Shown here: positions 11,647 to 28,658 of the stretch, one piece after another
Position numbering within the stretch: the stretch's first letter is position 1
Layout: each line of letters begins with the position of its first letter
Source of the DNA: Acidobacteriaceae bacterium
GTDB lineage: Bacteria > Acidobacteriota > Terriglobia > Terriglobales > Acidobacteriaceae
Direction: 5' to 3'
Assembly (NCBI GenBank): GCA_030040935.1
Contig: JASHSG010000028.1
Location: 1 to 32,299, forward strand
Length of the DNA: 32,299 bases
Notes under the pieces: generated by a model
Database searches by the model: none
Told to the model about the DNA's origin: nothing
What the model saw: the letters and a program-made list of their open reading frames with translations, nothing else
Translations under genes and position numbers: made by a program

Positions 11647-11789
11647 GAAAAGCCGCAGCAGAGCGCGCAACTGCAAGACCGCAGGGTGCACTATGCCGAT
11701 GATAAGCTATGCCATGGAGGCCGAAAGGCGGCGCGCACACCGCAAATGAAGCCTGGAACACGCTCTACAAACCCTCCGAAAGCCCTTCC

Positions 11790-13601
<1,812 letters not shown>

Positions 13602-13919: not shown

Positions 13920-14888
13920 TTAGTGGGAGGATGAGGGCGCTGAGGACGGCGCGTGCGTTGGAGGCGTCGCAGCTTTCGGCCGAGGTGCGTCGGCCGCCGG
14001 CTGAGCCGGCGGAGGCGGTACACCGGACTTGACGTTGTACGCGTCGATCACCTCTTTGGTGATGTTGGTGCCGCCGCTGGCGTAAAGCACAGGCGATTGC
14101 TGCTGCGAAATGTCAAGGACCAGGGTAAATCCCTGGCCTTCGGCGTAGGTCTGCATCACGTCGTACACCTTCGAAGCCAGCGATGTGTATAGATCCTGCA
14201 TATCCTGCTGGCCGTCGTTGCGCAGGTCCTCAGTTTCGCGATCCAACTGTTTCTTCTTATCGTCAACGGCCTTGCTCTTGTTGGCGCGCTCAACGTCGCT
14301 CATAGTGGCCGACGGGTCCTGCAGCTGCTTGTTCAATCCGTCGATCTCGTCGCTGAGAGCTTTAAGGGCCTCCTCTTTGGGAGCGTACTTTTTCTGGAGG
14401 TCGGCAAAATCGCGCTGGCCTTCGTTGGTTTGAGCCACGGCAAGCTGGAATGCGATGACGGCGATCCTGGCCGATCCGGCGGATGAGGCGGCGCCGGCCG
14501 CTACGGGCGGCGCTCCGACGAAGGCCCTGAGGGCCGGAAGCATGTCGGCTCGAATGTCGATCTCCACGTTCGCGGTTGTCGCATCGTGCACAATCACCTG
14601 GAGGTTCCCGAATGAGACCGTTTGGACCCCTCCGTCTTTGATTTCTGTCGAAGCTAATGGAATCTCCTTGCGGGTCCCCGAGTAGGCACAGGTGACCGAC
14701 TTAACTGATCCGCCAGGCAAGTACTTGATGTTGCCCTGCGCGTCGGAAACCATGTTGACGGACATGCCTTCAATCGAGCACTGAATATCCGGAGAGATCT
14801 GAACGTAGCCGGCAGGTGGTGTTTGGGCAGCGGCGCTCAGGGCGAGGCCTGAGGCCAGCAATAAAACAGATGCTAGCGGTCGTATCAT
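13920..14888 (-). CDS. OmpH/Skp-family periplasmic protein with an extra N-terminal domain
   Basis: The 322-residue product has a signal peptide (cut near AAAQ, residue 22). Residues 22 to about 125 form a domain I do not recognise, rich in beta strands and with two cysteines (C37, C67) that could form a disulfide. The Skp/OmpH module follows at about 140-288. It starts with RIAVIAFQLAVAQTNEGQRD, has a long charged coiled-coil (residues 160-230) and closes with LVLDISQQQSPVLYASGGTNIT. A Pro/Ala-rich tail ends the protein. Skp is a trimeric chaperone for unfolded outer-membrane proteins on their way to BamA. The gene lies downstream of a shorter paralogue and of bamA. AAGGAG lies 12 nt before the ATG, as it does for the paralogue. 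Confidence 0.88.
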   Translation of the reverse strand: MIRPLASVLLLASGLALSAAAQTPPAGYVQISPDIQCSIEGMSVNMVSDAQGNIKYLPGGSVKSVTCAYSGTRKEIPLASTEIKDGGVQTVSFGNLQVIVHDATTANVEIDIRADMLPALRAFVGAPPVAAGAASSAGSARIAVIAFQLAVAQTNEGQRDFADLQKKYAPKEEALKALSDEIDGLNKQLQDPSATMSDVERANKSKAVDDKKKQLDRETEDLRNDGQQDMQDLYTSLASKVYDVMQTYAEGQGFTLVLDISQQQSPVLYASGGTNITKEVIDAYNVKSGVPPPPAQPAADAPRPKAATPPTHAPSSAPSSSH

Positions 14889-15051
14889 TTGGATCGAAAA
14901 CTCCTTCGGGAATCCCGTTCGGCTGCGCTATTAGACGCAACAACGTGCTTGACTCATCTCACAAAGCTCACGGCTTTTCTCAGGGAACTCCGCGCCGGCC
15001 GGCACAAGGGTGAAAAGAACGCGATTGGAGACGTCAGCAGGGACCAAGTTG

Positions 15052-15057
15052 ATTATA
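15052..15057 (-). promoter_or_regulatory. Possible -10 box upstream of the longer skp paralogue
   Basis: A perfect TATAAT on the minus strand lies about 165 nt before the ATG at 14888, just after a GGGCCGG/CCGGCCC inverted repeat (15061-15084). No -35 match is found at 16-18 bp, so the support is weak. Confidence 0.25.
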
Positions 15058-15121
15058 CAGGGGCCGGTGCGCGGTCCCCGGCCCGAGATTTCCCAGTGTG
15101 CTTCAGTCCCGATCCCTGCCT

Positions 15122-15784
15122 TTAGTGGGCGGCGGGCTGCGGCTGGGGCGCATCCACGCCTGGTTGGTTCGCTCCACCCGGCTGGCCGGCTCCGGGACTC
15201 TCGGGCGGAGGCGCCGATACGCCCGACTTCAAGTTGTAGGCATCGATGATGGTCTTGGTGATATCGGTGGATGGCACGGCATAGAGCACCGTGGCGTTCT
15301 GCTGGTCGCCGGCGTCGAGGACAAGGGTGTAGCCCTGCTTCTGCGCGTAGTCGGTCATCAGCGCGCCCACCTTGGCGGCTACGCCATTGATCAACTGTTG
15401 CAAGTCGCCCTGGAAATCGCTTTGCGCGTCCTGGGTATCGCGGTCCAGCTGCTTTTTCTTGTCGTCGAGCGCGCGGGTGCGGCTCATGCGCTCTTCTTCG
15501 CCTAATTGCTGGCCCTGATCCTGCAACTGCTTGGTCAGGGTGTCAATCTGGTCGGAGAGGGCCTTGAGCTGCTGTCGCCTGGGATCGTACTTCTTCTGCA
15601 AGTCGGCGAAGTCGCGCTGGAATTCGTTGGTCTGGCTGACCGCGGCCTGAAAGGCGATCACGGCGACCTTGGCCGGGCCGGCGGAAGCGGCTGCACTGGG
15701 TCTTTGCGGGGCAGATGTCTGGCCGGCGGCTGGAACAAGAGACGCCAGTGTCACTAAAAGGGCGAACAGGGGCAAACGCTTCAT
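15122..15784 (-). CDS. OmpH/Skp-family periplasmic chaperone
   Basis: The 220-residue product has a clean signal peptide (MKRLPLFALLVTLASLVPAAGQ). The Skp/OmpH module begins near residue 39 with KVAVIAFQAAVSQTNEFQRD, passes through a charged coiled coil with DDKKKQLDRDT and ends with YTLVLDAGDQQNATVLYA; a Pro/Gly/Ala-rich tail follows. It matches the C-terminal two thirds of the neighbouring longer gene in motif order, so the two are tandem paralogues. The role is to hold outer-membrane proteins soluble in the periplasm for BamA. I use the ATG at 15784, with AAAGGAG 12 nt upstream; an in-frame TTG at 15793 is only 3 nt from that site. bamA lies 478 nt upstream on the same strand. Confidence 0.92.
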   Translation of the reverse strand: MKRLPLFALLVTLASLVPAAGQTSAPQRPSAAASAGPAKVAVIAFQAAVSQTNEFQRDFADLQKKYDPRRQQLKALSDQIDTLTKQLQDQGQQLGEEERMSRTRALDDKKKQLDRDTQDAQSDFQGDLQQLINGVAAKVGALMTDYAQKQGYTLVLDAGDQQNATVLYAVPSTDITKTIIDAYNLKSGVSAPPPESPGAGQPGGANQPGVDAPQPQPAAH

Positions 15785-16262
15785 GCGATTCAACGACTCC
15801 TTTGGAGTTCCCGCGCGCCAGTCCGGTCAGCGCGGCAGCCTCCAATCAAAGCTTGCCGACAGCCTCTGTTCGGCTGCACTGGAGGACCGTCCGGCTTGAA
15901 TCCTGCTAATTAAGCATCCGCGCCGGGAACTAGAGGGGATTATAGGAGCCTGAATTGGGAGCGTCAAACCAGCCGCGAACCGGGGCCAAAGCTCGTCCGC
16001 GACGGACGCGGGCCGCTTTTTTGACGCTTTCCTGCATTGTGCTCCAACCGGAGAAATGATCAGCAAACTTCGCGGAAAAAATATCCGGCGCGGAATGAGG
16101 GAATTGGAGGGGGTTGGAGCGGCCGAGGGGATTGACATCGCAACCGCCCGGGTGCTTCAGCCAACAGGCTCATCCTTCGCGAAAGCAAAAGCCGGATGGA
16201 TTTCCCCGGCCCTGGACGCACGGAAGCGAGAGCATCCAAAGGCGGATTGATGGAGCGGGGAT
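15785..16262. other. Gap between bamA and skp: leader and promoter, no gene
   Basis: No coding region is supported. The part nearest skp holds a good promoter and a leader of about 140 nt. At 15994-16008 a small perfect hairpin, CGTCCG-CGA-CGGACG, lies just upstream of the -35, followed on the plus strand by six T residues (16017-16022). I see no convincing terminator directly after bamA. Confidence 0.55.
15939..15967 (-). promoter_or_regulatory. Sigma-70 promoter of the skp/ompH genes
   Basis: On the minus strand TTGACG is followed after exactly 17 bp by TATAAT, the best promoter in the window. Transcription would begin near 15932 and leave a leader of about 140 nt before the ATG at 15784. 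It implies that skp can be made independently of bamA. Confidence 0.68.
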
Positions 16263-19115
16263 CTAGAAGGTGGTGGAGATGGTGAGCCGGAAGGTCTTGC
16301 GCGGCTCGCGGAAGATGTCCTGCGCGCCGTAAGACTGGATGGCTTCCTGATAGGTGTAATCGCCGGCGCCGCCGGGCGGGAACATGTCGCGGGTAATGAG
16401 CTCCGCCGAGCAGCTCAACTGCTTCTGGCCGAGGTTCACGTCGTTGCAATAGGGCGTTTCATAGAGGCGGAGGGGGTTATAGGCATAGTAGAGGCGGAAG
16501 GGCGCATTAATGACCGGCATAATGACCGAGAGCTCGGTTCCCAGGGACATGCGGGGAACAAAGTTGGTGCCGGCCACGGGATGAATATCTTTGCGGAAAC
16601 CGACCTCTGAGCCGGGAATGCCGCCCTGGCACGATCCGTTGTTGTAGACCGGGCAGCCATAGAGAGGTTGCGTGAGGCTGGCAAAGCCCTCGGGGCTCTG
16701 CTTCAACTGGCCGTGATTGGTCGCGACGTCGATGCCGAAGTCATCGAAGAAGGAGAACATGAAGGGCCCCACCACGGGAATGCGGTACTCGGCGTTGGCA
16801 GTCAAGTCGGTATCGCCGCCAATAGAGGCGACGCCGTAAACGGGGAGCGGGACCTGGATGCACTGGTTGTCCTGGGGATTGGTGGGGTCGCGGGGCACGC
16901 AACTGCCGTCGGGGTTGTCGAGTTGGAAGTTAACGCGAGTAGGCACATAGCCATAGGGAGTGGCGCCGCGGACGTCAAAGCCGCGCAACTCCATTTCGCC
17001 GCCCGCATAGAAGCGGTTGTTGGGAGGAGCCACATCGCCGCCGTAGCCCTGAATGTATCCGAGCTGGGCACGGAGGCCGAGCACGTTGCGCCCGTCCTTG
17101 GCGAACTTCAGGTAGTGCATGGGGATGAATTGCTTGTACGCGACCACCGGGTTGACATAGCGGACGCTGCCCCAGATACCCGATGTCTGCACAAATGCGG
17201 TGTATTGCTTGCCATCGCGGGGACGGATGGGATTGCTGACGGTGTCGTAGGTGTAGGTGAGCGAGATATTGCTGTTGATAATGCCCGCCAGCGGGTTCGA
17301 CCCCTGTACCCCGGAACGGAAGGCGATGGTCTGGAAAAAGGTCGAAGAGGCGGTGCTGAAGGCCGTAATGGTGGACTTGGTGAGCGAGTAGGTCATGCCC
17401 ACGCGCTGGAACGCATGCCTCTTGAGGGGATAGCTGAGTGAGAAATTGAGGCCGTCGGATCCGACGTTGTAGTTCTGCGTCAGCGATTTCTCGGCCGCGG
17501 ATAAATTAAGCGAGGCGCCGGTGGTGGCCTGGTAGTTTTTGGCGGCGTTGTAGTCCTGCTTGTTGTTGAAAACCTGGAATCCCATGTTGACGGGGCGGTT
17601 GCGAAAATACGGCTGCGTGAAGCCGAAGAGGAAGGTGCGGCTGATGCTGCCGAGGTTGGCCTGCAGACTGAGAGTCTCGCCCAGCCCGAGAAAGTTGTTG
17701 GTGGAGTAATTTACGCCCAGGAAGGCGCCGGAGAGCCCACTGACGCCGCCATTGAGCCCAATGGAATTCTTGCCCTTCTCCTTGACCTTCAAGAGCAGCT
17801 CGACGGTGCCGTTATCGGGATCCTGGTGGGCCTCAGAGTCCTGATCGACCTTGAGGGGCTCGAAGTATTCGAGCTGATTGAGGCGCAGCAGGCTGTACTC
17901 CCACAGCTGCGAGTTGTAGACCGAACCCTCATCCAGCAGCAGCTCGCGGCGGATCACGCGATCGCGGGTGATGGTGTTGCCTTGGAACTCGATACGCGAG
18001 ACGAAGAACTGCTTACCCTCGTCGATGTCGATCTTCAGCGAGACGGTTCTCTTCTCGTCGTCGTAGACTTCGGCGGGGATGGCGCCGAAGTTGATGTAGC
18101 CGAGGCCCCCGTAGGCCTTTTTGAGGTTGTCGAGGCCCTTGCTGATCTCGGTGGCGTTGAACCAATCGCCATCCTTGATGGGGAAGGTGGAGCGCAGGGC
18201 TTTCATGTTGGTGATCTGCTTGTTGCCAGTGAAGGTAATGGTGCCCAGGCGATAGCGTCCGCCTTCTTCAATGGTCATGGAAATGTCGATGCGCTTGCCG
18301 GTGCGCGGCCTGAACGTGAACCAGTTGAGGCCACCCTCGTCGCGAATCTGGGTTTTGGGCTGTTCCACCGCGGCGCTGGCATATCCCTTGTCGCGGTAGG
18401 CCTGGCGAACGCGCTCCGTGTCTTCCTCGAGCTTGGAGGAGTCGTAGGTCTGGGGAAAGAGGTCTTCGAAGACGATGGAATAGGGGATGCCGATGGGCTT
18501 GAGGTTCTTCATGGAGCGGCGCAGGTAGAGGGCGCTCAGATGCTGATTGCCCACAAAGGTGATTTTGCCCACCTTCACGACGGGGCCTTCCTTGATGTTG
18601 AAGGTAACCTGGACCGAAGCCGGAGGAACGGTCTTGACGTCGGTTCTGACGGTCGCGAACTGGTGGCCATGCTCAGCCAGCAGCTCCTTGATGACGGTTA
18701 CGGCGTGCGTGATCCGGGTGGGGTCGTACTGGCTCTCCACCGACAGGCCCACCTTGTCTTTCTTGAAGGCATCGAGGATGTCGGAGTTGGTGACGGAGTT
18801 GTTGCCCTTATAGATGATGTCGCGGATGGTGGGCTTCTCGCGGACAAACACGTCGAGGATAACGCCTTTCTCGGAGTCCTCGCGCTCGATGCGCAGATCC
18901 TCGAAGTAGCCGGTATTCCAAAGGGAATTGAAGTCGCGCTCGATAGAGACCGGGTCGTAGGTGTCACCCGGATGCGTAAACATGCGGGCAAGGATGGTTT
19001 CCTTGGGAATGCGCCGGTTTCCGATCACGCGAATCTGGTCGATGGTGTCGGAAGTCTGCGCAAACGCCGCACCCGCGCACGACACCAGAGCGGCCAGGAT
19101 GAGGACACGCGCCAT
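16263..19115 (-). CDS. bamA: Outer-membrane protein assembly factor BamA
   Basis: BamA inserts beta-barrel proteins into the outer membrane. The 950-residue product begins with a signal peptide (MARVLILAALVSCAGAAFAQ) followed by POTRA repeats, the first starting IDQIRVIGNRRIPKETILAR. A C-terminal surface-antigen barrel spans roughly the last half. The barrel has the conserved loop-6 motif as ELRGFDVRG, and the protein ends FRLTISTTF, the aromatic C-terminal signature of outer-membrane barrels. It is somewhat longer than E. coli BamA (810), mainly in the barrel loops. The start is uncertain: a GTG at 19166 would give a longer, more basic leader (VKNRRTSLS...). Two Skp-family chaperones lie downstream, the usual genomic partnership. 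Confidence 0.95.
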   Translation of the reverse strand: MARVLILAALVSCAGAAFAQTSDTIDQIRVIGNRRIPKETILARMFTHPGDTYDPVSIERDFNSLWNTGYFEDLRIEREDSEKGVILDVFVREKPTIRDIIYKGNNSVTNSDILDAFKKDKVGLSVESQYDPTRITHAVTVIKELLAEHGHQFATVRTDVKTVPPASVQVTFNIKEGPVVKVGKITFVGNQHLSALYLRRSMKNLKPIGIPYSIVFEDLFPQTYDSSKLEEDTERVRQAYRDKGYASAAVEQPKTQIRDEGGLNWFTFRPRTGKRIDISMTIEEGGRYRLGTITFTGNKQITNMKALRSTFPIKDGDWFNATEISKGLDNLKKAYGGLGYINFGAIPAEVYDDEKRTVSLKIDIDEGKQFFVSRIEFQGNTITRDRVIRRELLLDEGSVYNSQLWEYSLLRLNQLEYFEPLKVDQDSEAHQDPDNGTVELLLKVKEKGKNSIGLNGGVSGLSGAFLGVNYSTNNFLGLGETLSLQANLGSISRTFLFGFTQPYFRNRPVNMGFQVFNNKQDYNAAKNYQATTGASLNLSAAEKSLTQNYNVGSDGLNFSLSYPLKRHAFQRVGMTYSLTKSTITAFSTASSTFFQTIAFRSGVQGSNPLAGIINSNISLTYTYDTVSNPIRPRDGKQYTAFVQTSGIWGSVRYVNPVVAYKQFIPMHYLKFAKDGRNVLGLRAQLGYIQGYGGDVAPPNNRFYAGGEMELRGFDVRGATPYGYVPTRVNFQLDNPDGSCVPRDPTNPQDNQCIQVPLPVYGVASIGGDTDLTANAEYRIPVVGPFMFSFFDDFGIDVATNHGQLKQSPEGFASLTQPLYGCPVYNNGSCQGGIPGSEVGFRKDIHPVAGTNFVPRMSLGTELSVIMPVINAPFRLYYAYNPLRLYETPYCNDVNLGQKQLSCSAELITRDMFPPGGAGDYTYQEAIQSYGAQDIFREPRKTFRLTISTTF

Positions 19116-19302
19116 GCTGCCCAGCGCTGAAGCGGCCGCGGAGAGGGAAGTGCGCCTGTTCTTCACCGGGTATGAGGCCTTCGGCGAACACAAAAACCTT
19201 TTCGTGCCATGTTTCGGGTTCACGGGAAGAATTTGCACACCCTCATTCGCTCGAAATCCGGTCTTTCCACGAAGATTTTGATCGTTCCTAACGGAAAGAT
19301 CG

Positions 19303-19332
19303 ATTCTACAGGACCGCGCCCACCCTGCCCAA
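19303..19332 (-). promoter_or_regulatory. Candidate sigma-70 promoter of bamA
   Basis: On the minus strand TTGGGC is followed after 18 bp by TAGAAT, 188 nt before the ATG at 19115 (137 nt before the alternative GTG). The match is moderate. Confidence 0.4.
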
Positions 19333-19445
19333 ACTCTGCGGACCCAAAAACGGCGGATCGCCGTTGGGGAGCGACGCGGGCGTTGACGACAGGCCCGCGA
19401 CCGAATCCACAACACAGATTCCCAGCCCTGCCCGGCGCCACGGGC

Positions 19446-26495: not shown

Positions 26496-28658
26496 CTACG
26501 GAGACAGGTGCGAAAACGCCGCCGCAGGCACTTCGACCAGGGGTGTCGATGGCCCGTCCCACAGCAGGCGCGGCGCGCCGTCGCTCGAGGTGTTGAGGGC
26601 TTCGATATGGATCGCATGCAATCCGGCGCGCAGGCCCAGCGAGCCACGGCCGTAGCGGAGTGCGTTGCCCGGCGAGCCGCAGACGAGCCCGAAGGGCGGC
26701 CCGGTCTTCGCCACCTCCATTCCGTCGATCACAAGTCGCGCGCCGTCGCGGTCGATGAGGTGAAAGGTATAGCCTCCGTCGGCAGGAATGTCGATGAAGC
26801 CGTCCCAGGAGGTGGCGAATTGCTTCAGCCCCGGCGAACCTGCGATGAGATTCGGTGACTGGCCGGCAAAAGCCGGCTGGAGGGTGGAGAAGTCGGGCAG
26901 GGTGGTCCATGTACCGGGAAAAATATTCCAACTCAGGCCCGGCGCAGGCGGCGACGCAGACCTGACCGCATCGTGGAATTGCCCGACGGCCACCAGTCCC
27001 TGCGCCGCCCAATCCTCGTGTCCGGCGCTGCCGGTGACGTGCAACAAAACGCGGAACCGTCCGGCGCCATTTTTTCCGTCGAGCTCGGTCCCCAGCGCAT
27101 CGGGAAAGCGATGACGCACGCGGCGGCCTTTGGCCGAGCTTCCATCGCCAAAAAGCCAAGTGTATTCGGCGCCGGGCATGTCCTCGGCCGTGAGCGTGAC
27201 TTTCCGGCCCGGCGAAAAGACCAGCGGATCGACGGTGAACGCGGCGACGAGAGCAGGCGCGGGAGCGAACCCGGGCTGCTGCGCGCCGCCCGAGACGGAG
27301 AGCGGCAACCCGGCGTCTGAGGTCACGCGCGCCTGACCGTATTTCACGTTGTCGAACGTCACGCCGCTCACATCGCCGATGATCGTCGATTCGGCAAGCG
27401 GGGGCTGATCGAGCGCCCAGATGTTGCGGAATTGAAATCCGTGCAGGCTGGGTTTCTCCTGCTCCATTTGCTCAAGGGAATACCAGTTGTCGAGGAAAAT
27501 GTTCTCGAAGCTAACCGCAGAGCGGTCGCCGCTGGCCCCGTTTGCGCTCCATAGGCCGAGCAGGCCAAATGTTTGTCCGCAGGATCCGATGCCGGCGTGC
27601 AAAATGTCGGAGTCGCGGAAGGTGAAGTTGTGGAGGTTGTAGATCTTTTGCGGCCAGCCCAATCTGACGACATTGGAGATGCTGGTGGAGAATTCGCTGT
27701 TCTCGACCAGAATGTTGTTGACGTCGGCGCCGGGCGTGGTCATGGCGGCCTGAGTGTACCCGTCCCAATTGCCGAGCGCCGCCAGGTCGTCGTCGGAGGC
27801 GCGGAAGAAGGAGTGATTCACGACGGTGTCGCCGCCGCCCAGCCAGTCCATGCCATCCTGATTGGCATTGCCCGGGTCGCCGGCGATCACGCGGAGGTCG
27901 TCGAATGTGAGCCCGGTGGAATCCTTCATCTGGATGGACCAGGTACGCGACCGGATGATGCAGGTCAAGCCGTCGATCTCAATGTTGCGGGCCTGGTCGG
28001 TTACGATGCAGTGCCAATCGGGCTGGTGCAACCAGCCAGTGTCGGCGTTCGGGTCCTGCGGGCCGTCGTAGAGAATCGTTCCCCGCCCCAGCACTCTTAC
28101 GTTTTCCACTTGCCACAGGTTCAGGCTGCCGAAGACGAAAGCTCCCGGCTCGAGGTAGATGGTGTCGCCGGTTTTGGGGTTCAGGCTTTCGCGATGCACG
28201 CCGACAGGCACGATGGTGACGCCGGGTCCGGCGGGCGGCGGAGGCGGAGGCGGCGAGTCGGCAAATACGAACAGCATGCGCGCCTGGTTGAGGAAGTCGC
28301 CGGGCCGCGAGATGGAGAGCTTGACGGGACCGGGAATCCTGAAGCGGATGGTTTGGGGCTCGCCGTCCGGGTGCGTCGCGCGCAGACCCAGCCGCCAGGG
28401 CTGAATGTCGACGCCGCTATCCCAGAAATGTGGATCGGCCGCGGTAACCGAAATATCCGCAGGCCCGGTGGTATCGAAGCTCAAGAATTCATAGTTCGAA
28501 GCGGCGTGAGCGACGTCGACGCGCTGGTTGTTCACAGTGACGGCGAAGAAACTGTTGCGCATTTCCCCGGGGACGGGCGCGGCCTGAATCTGCGCGGCGG
28601 CGCGGACAGCGCTCGACAACGCGAGCAGGACGAGGAATGACGCGCGAAAATCCCGCAA
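26496..28658 (-). CDS. Secreted right-handed beta-helix enzyme with PKD and PA14 modules (GH49/GH28-like)
   Basis: The 720-residue product has a signal peptide (residues 1 to about 22) and a beta-sandwich-like N-terminal domain (about 28-135), followed by a proline linker of seven residues (136-142). A parallel beta-helix (about 150-450) with acid clusters NQDGMD (266-271) and ASDDD (287-291) follows; such Asp pairs are where GH28 and GH49 enzymes keep their catalytic residues. A PKD-type domain (about 470-555, with WLFGDGSSAKG) and a C-terminal PA14-like domain (about 590-720, with GGYTFHLIDRDGARLVIDG and LRAGLHAIHIEA) complete it. It is probably an extracellular or periplasmic polysaccharide-cleaving enzyme; the substrate (dextran-like, pectin-like or other) is not decided by the sequence. 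The start is TTG; no ATG is near. Confidence 0.82.
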   Translation of the reverse strand: MRDFRASFLVLLALSSAVRAAAQIQAAPVPGEMRNSFFAVTVNNQRVDVAHAASNYEFLSFDTTGPADISVTAADPHFWDSGVDIQPWRLGLRATHPDGEPQTIRFRIPGPVKLSISRPGDFLNQARMLFVFADSPPPPPPPAGPGVTIVPVGVHRESLNPKTGDTIYLEPGAFVFGSLNLWQVENVRVLGRGTILYDGPQDPNADTGWLHQPDWHCIVTDQARNIEIDGLTCIIRSRTWSIQMKDSTGLTFDDLRVIAGDPGNANQDGMDWLGGGDTVVNHSFFRASDDDLAALGNWDGYTQAAMTTPGADVNNILVENSEFSTSISNVVRLGWPQKIYNLHNFTFRDSDILHAGIGSCGQTFGLLGLWSANGASGDRSAVSFENIFLDNWYSLEQMEQEKPSLHGFQFRNIWALDQPPLAESTIIGDVSGVTFDNVKYGQARVTSDAGLPLSVSGGAQQPGFAPAPALVAAFTVDPLVFSPGRKVTLTAEDMPGAEYTWLFGDGSSAKGRRVRHRFPDALGTELDGKNGAGRFRVLLHVTGSAGHEDWAAQGLVAVGQFHDAVRSASPPAPGLSWNIFPGTWTTLPDFSTLQPAFAGQSPNLIAGSPGLKQFATSWDGFIDIPADGGYTFHLIDRDGARLVIDGMEVAKTGPPFGLVCGSPGNALRYGRGSLGLRAGLHAIHIEALNTSSDGAPRLLWDGPSTPLVEVPAAAFSHLSP

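Follow-up and report, generated by a model that had tools for sequence, protein, structure and literature searches.

Skp is chiefly known as a chaperone of small size (17 kDa), and the locus described here raises the question of what an additional N-terminal domain of ~104 residues is doing on one member of a pair of Skp proteins. The pair is encoded in a 32,299-nucleotide stretch of contig JASHSG010000028.1 of an Acidobacteriaceae bacterium (the whole of which is referred to as the window), from a genome (G000) of 363 contigs, 80% complete and with 0.5% contamination. The genes skpA and skpB are situated between bamA and the convergent lepA (Table 1) and are the only Skp matches in that 80% complete genome. 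The skpA frame also opens at a TTG three codons upstream of its ATG, and the true start of bamA is probably inside the listed ORF. Elsewhere in the window, an open frame of 720 residues (26499-28658, minus strand) had PKD and PA14 matches above the cut-off.

Table 1. Features of the skpA-skpB locus, in window positions
Feature	Position	Strand	Size or description	Basis
skpB (long form)	13920..14888	-	322 aa; signal peptide, N-terminal domain, Skp/OmpH core, Pro/Ala-rich tail	
SkpB signal peptide	14826..14888	-	residues 1-21; ends AAA, followed by Q	inspection of alignment
SkpB N-terminal domain	14514..14825	-	residues 22-125; C37 and C67; unnamed family	homologues; no family match
SkpB Ala/Pro linker	14469..14513	-	residues 126-140	alignments
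SkpB Skp/OmpH core	14040..14468	-	residues 141-283	PF03938; Foldseek to Skp structures
SkpB Pro/Ala-rich C-terminal tail	13923..14021	-	residues 290-322	sequence
AAGGAG before skpB	14901..14906	-	12 nt before ATG	
skpA (short form)	15122..15784	-	220 aa from ATG; ordinary Skp	
AAGGAG before skpA	15797..15802	-	12 nt before ATG	
bamA	16263..19415	-	upstream neighbour; five POTRA stretches and Omp85	profile matches; synteny
lepA	11709..13601	+	convergent; other side of the skp pair	profile match; synteny

The initial annotation of this DNA described the two proteins as tandem Skp paralogues, and this was borne out, as both exceeded the Pfam cut-off of 32.4 bits for PF03938 (OmpH), with scores of 75.4 bits for SkpB and 82 bits for SkpA. 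The two proteins were 55% identical over 180 aligned positions (E 2e-57), based on which their resemblance is not a matter of chance. The Skp motifs that the annotation had listed as common to both, the proline-rich tails (which are Pro/Ala-rich) and the AAGGAG exactly 12 nt before each start were all present in the sequence; so too were the roughly 104 extra residues between the signal peptide and core of the longer protein, whose only cysteines are C37 and C67. By eye, the SkpB signal peptide has a charged start, a hydrophobic run and the AAA/Q junction, features that are alike in relatives, and inspection of the alignment indicated that it is of the same type as that of the short-form SkpB proteins of those relatives. 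In the AlphaFold2 model of the long protein (mean pLDDT 68.1 and pTM 0.49 over the whole chain), block means of pLDDT were 84-98 at residues 151-250, and pLDDT was 44-77 at residues 141-150 and 251-280. The top eight rows of a Foldseek search with this model were all Skp/OmpH-type chains, including 1sg2_A (TM normalised by target 0.86, E 4.2e-5), and the core is predicted to be Skp-like, with an association domain and a long helical hairpin. It is a distant Skp, since a search of PDB sequences with the single SkpB sequence found no Skp structure and a profile search found only that of C. crescentus, 4kqt, weakly (E 0.0089). The tentacle stretch is acidic in both proteins (pI 4.61 in the long form and 4.87 in the short), values that describe its whole length.

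The tandem arrangement itself is of long standing and widespread in the genus, and only the extra domain is unusual. Skp matches were identified in 76 of the 80 genus genomes and at least two matches in 64 of the 80, a count that includes the window's genome, some pairs on different contigs, and three genomes (G034, G072 and G098) in which a third match fell below the cut-off. All 14 loci related to skpB, every one from a MAG (Acidobacteriaceae, Acidobacteriales or Acidobacteria), had two or more Skp frames, with bamA on the fetched stretch in eight and lepA in 12. In the class sample, Skp was present in 120 of 121 genomes, mostly in one or two copies. The duplication is considered old because the A and B copies fell mostly into separate groups in a tree of 143 cores, in which the A/B labels followed from the best score alone, several of the deep forks were poorly supported and the bootstrap had not converged. 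The shared AAGGAG had been taken as pointing to tandem duplication. However, it was located within 30 nt of 137 of the 142 genus Skp starts examined (at exactly 12 nt in 98 of them) and does not indicate that the genes duplicated recently. On the meaning of the shared ribosome site and of the tandem arrangement, the earlier reading was therefore too strong.

Turning to the domain, nine aligned copies were compared with Pfam, NCBIfam, PHROGs and PDB sequences and no significant match was obtained: the best E values were 0.26, 0.05 and 0.057 for the first three, each from a single member, and no PDB sequence was matched at E 10. The description of the domain as undescribed thus held, and its family is absent from Pfam, NCBIfam and PHROGs, the libraries searched. 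Among the nine copies, which exclude a half copy from G099, ten columns were invariant, both cysteines included, and the domain ended in a largely conserved IR.D....LRAF stretch. Between the window's genome and G098, the domain was 77-78% identical versus 69% for the core, with dN of 0.12 versus 0.24. The corresponding dN/dS ratios (~0.13 versus ~0.21) indicate that the domain is under purifying selection stronger than that on the core. The annotation had allowed that the segment might prove to be a known domain, or to be disordered and not conserved; the segment found here is conserved rather than drifting and has no significant match in those libraries, though its fold comes from a low-confidence model. 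That model, made from the single sequence of the isolated domain, consists of seven strands plus a helix at the C-terminus (mean pLDDT 61.5, pTM 0.51), hairpins and helix follow one another in a similar way in the full-length model, and the domain is probably beta-rich. It is also probable that C37 and C67 form one disulfide that staples it. Fold searches with the low-confidence domain model gave a best Foldseek E of 0.32 and a best VIA Z of 3.2; the rows returned (viral envelope, mucin, Whirly and kelch chains) were at chance level and no fold is claimed from them, nor was use made of a weak row for the lysozyme inhibitor PliC (E 0.36) from a Foldseek search with the full-length model.

How often the domain accompanies Skp was assessed from the distance that separates signal peptide and core, in 145 Skp rows from 76 genus genomes, with the start set by a simple rule (no start was found in three rows). 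A single interrupted gene of G009 accounts for two of the rows, and G103 is represented without its second Skp. Only three rows exceeded 60 residues: SkpB of the window (138), SkpB of G098 (139) and the middle Skp of G061 (156), which has a different insert. Consistent with this, a profile search of 80 genus genomes located the domain on Skp only in G098 and the window's genome, which share the locus of the fusion. The pairing of the domain with Skp that was anticipated in relatives does exist, but at two of 80 genomes it is thin. None of the 24 Skp genes at 20 loci of the class survey carried the domain, their lengths being 23-57; these loci were picked mainly for long frames among those listed and are not a full survey. 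Two other enlarged Skp proteins were observed. The third Skp of G061, a 474-aa frame between the usual two (L009:2158-3579, plus strand; also in L064), has ~130 extra residues before the core and >100 after it, and a long branch in the core tree; its pre-core segment, which we take to resemble a carboxypeptidase-regulatory-like domain, had no Pfam match of that type at E 1. In G050, a protein of 797 aa (L153:1501-3894, minus strand) has a Skp core followed by ~560 residues that we read as TPR repeats.

The domain was also identified on proteins other than Skp. A search with the window's sequence found it in four of 60 relatives, and profile searches found it in seven of 80 genus genomes (G000, G009, G018, G028, G095, G098 and G099), two of 299 genomes of the class (the window's and G243, which is from another family, 85% complete with 5% contamination), at least three of 398 of the family (the window's, G098 and G028) and at least one of 396 of the phylum (the window's). 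These samples overlap and each count includes the window's genome; in the family and phylum searches up to 12 first-look candidates per genome were scored, such that weak copies may be missed. Most copies were in fragmented MAGs, and among the 42 good-quality genus genomes only G098 had the domain. A tblastn search of plasmids gave no match. As judged by eye, a signal peptide precedes the domain in all cases except the second of two copies on an ankyrin-repeat protein of G009, which follows the first. The other carriers include the following: an FKBP-type isomerase of G095 with the domain at its N-terminus (L077:467-1675, plus strand; FKBP_C E 7.9e-18); long proteins of G028 and G243 that we read as propeller-like, for which Pfam gave only PD40 (E 0.13) and nothing, respectively; two small neighbouring ORFs of G018 (L006:123-999, minus strand), each a signal peptide plus one copy; and a truncated ORF of 85 aa in G099 (L078:786-1043, plus strand) that matches only the first half of the profile.

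The fusion recurs at the corresponding locus of G098, which is 99% complete and aligns continuously over window positions 14007-14939, and this rules out an assembly chimera. In the core tree, SkpB of G098 grouped with that of G096 (support 99/95) and the window's SkpB with those of G012 and G061 (support 95/82), all three of these relatives having short forms; a sister relationship of the two long-form cores was ruled out (AU p 0.0001). The G096 gene aligns with that of G098 on both sides of a segment of ~324 nt, comprising nearly all of the domain and linker, for which it has no counterpart. The fusion is nonetheless most simply of one origin, because the domains of the two genomes are so similar to each other whereas none of the other seven aligned copies exceeds 40% identity. 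The dS between the two genomes was 0.90 for the domain (95% interval 0.58-1.42), 0.92 for bamA, 1.0 for lepA and 1.18 for skpA, and a recent transfer of the domain is accordingly not supported. Silent sites in the genus are near saturation, with sister pairs also at dS ~0.9-1.2, so only a recent transfer is excluded by these values. The data fit equally an old fusion that was repeatedly lost (by our reading of the core tree, with at least six losses after a single gain), two old gains, or an old transfer of the 5' part between lineages. As the domain is on Skp in only two genomes and absent from the nearest relatives of each, the fusion is dispensable.

We tentatively propose, with somewhat less than even confidence, that the N-terminal domain is a portable, probably disulfide-stapled envelope binding module that was grafted onto SkpB, most likely for docking. 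SkpA and SkpB would both be periplasmic Skp-type holdases for outer-membrane proteins, and in this lineage SkpB carries the domain directly behind its signal peptide. The N termini of Skp form the body of the trimer, from which the tentacles hang, as described in excerpts of PMC10994853, and three copies of the domain would therefore be expected to crown that body. There the module may bind a fixed envelope partner (the outer membrane, the wall or a protein), holding the chaperone near its place of work while the client cavity stays free. A precedent for Skp paralogues that differ in their duties is the Bacteroidota pair, one member of which is a constant component of an envelope complex, according to the same excerpts. 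A binding module is likelier than a part of the Skp mechanism because the partners of the domain are so different and it also stands alone, and the occurrence of the fusion at one locus in two genomes argues against a fault of assembly. A further reading, which we consider rather unlikely, is that an undescribed, disulfide-type module of Acidobacteriota is being shuffled among envelope folding factors (Skp and the FKBP isomerase) and further exported proteins, on all of which it would serve as an address tag for one envelope site.

Three other explanations were weighed. The domain could be a client-binding extension that recognizes folded portions of particular outer-membrane proteins while the unfolded barrel stays in the Skp cavity, and SkpB would then have a client set of its own. 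The divergence of the paralogues and the presence of the domain on an isomerase, another folding factor, are in its favor, as is the statement in the review PMC9820271 that the cavity of Skp most probably does not enclose the periplasmic domains of clients, which would stick out of it. Docking is favored over this possibility, which we regard as unlikely, because the N termini are in the trimer body and the domain occurs on unrelated exported proteins, the stand-alone, ankyrin and propeller-like carriers not being known chaperones. The annotation had suggested a specialized client or localization, and docking would fit better given where the N termini of Skp lie. The domain might instead be the functional part, with Skp reduced to a trimeric stalk that displays three ligand-binding domains and chaperoning left to SkpA. 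The core does change faster than the domain, and excerpts of PMC10994853 describe the Bacteroidota paralogue as reused as a structural element; yet the core retains the conserved positions common to short-form SkpB orthologues and is still under purifying selection, making a mere stalk quite improbable.

The possibility that the domain is a near-neutral decoration, acquired through illegitimate recombination within the flexible linker that follows the signal peptide, then tolerated and frequently lost, would explain its rare and patchy occurrence (at least two changes on the core tree, and absence in G096), and the third Skp copy of G061 is also decorated, with different extra segments. Against this, selection on the domain is stronger than on the core and its dS resembles those of bamA and lepA, which argues that it is old and not a passing insertion; we judge decoration distinctly unlikely. 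If the address-tag reading is correct, outer-membrane protein biogenesis would be specialized by a novel route, the grafting of an address onto a general chaperone. With two diverged paralogues beside bamA, one of them bearing the grafted domain, and a sister species without the segment as a natural control, the role of Skp paralogues and accessory domains becomes testable.

Among the papers listed by the literature searches, which for the most part did not cover subscription papers, no title or opening of an abstract named a tandem or domain-extended Skp in Acidobacteriota. The skp gene of E. coli is likewise beside bamA. SkpB shares the profile, predicted core fold and signal peptide of E. 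coli Skp (PDB 1sg2/1u2m; PF03938), and differs from it in the N-terminal domain, the Pro/Ala tail and the tandem paralogue. In addition, its core is acidic (pI 4.6), whereas the tips of the Skp tentacles are rich in positive residues, as given in part of PMC9820271. Flavobacterium johnsoniae and Porphyromonas gingivalis also have two Skp homologues, SkpA and SkpB, in one operon and with different roles, and F. johnsoniae SkpA is, like SkpB here, extended relative to E. coli Skp; that extension, however, is C-terminal, a helix touching PorV of the type 9 translocon (excerpts of PMC10994853). Closest to the window's SkpB are the short-form SkpB proteins (for example, of L009, L010 and L011), which have the same locus and signal peptide type and 73-75% identity to it, with a short Ala/Pro linker in place of the domain. 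The isomerase of G095 offers the complementary comparison, as it is an envelope folding factor with the same domain family behind its signal peptide, but its catalytic part is FKBP_C rather than Skp and its domain is 27% identical to that of the window.
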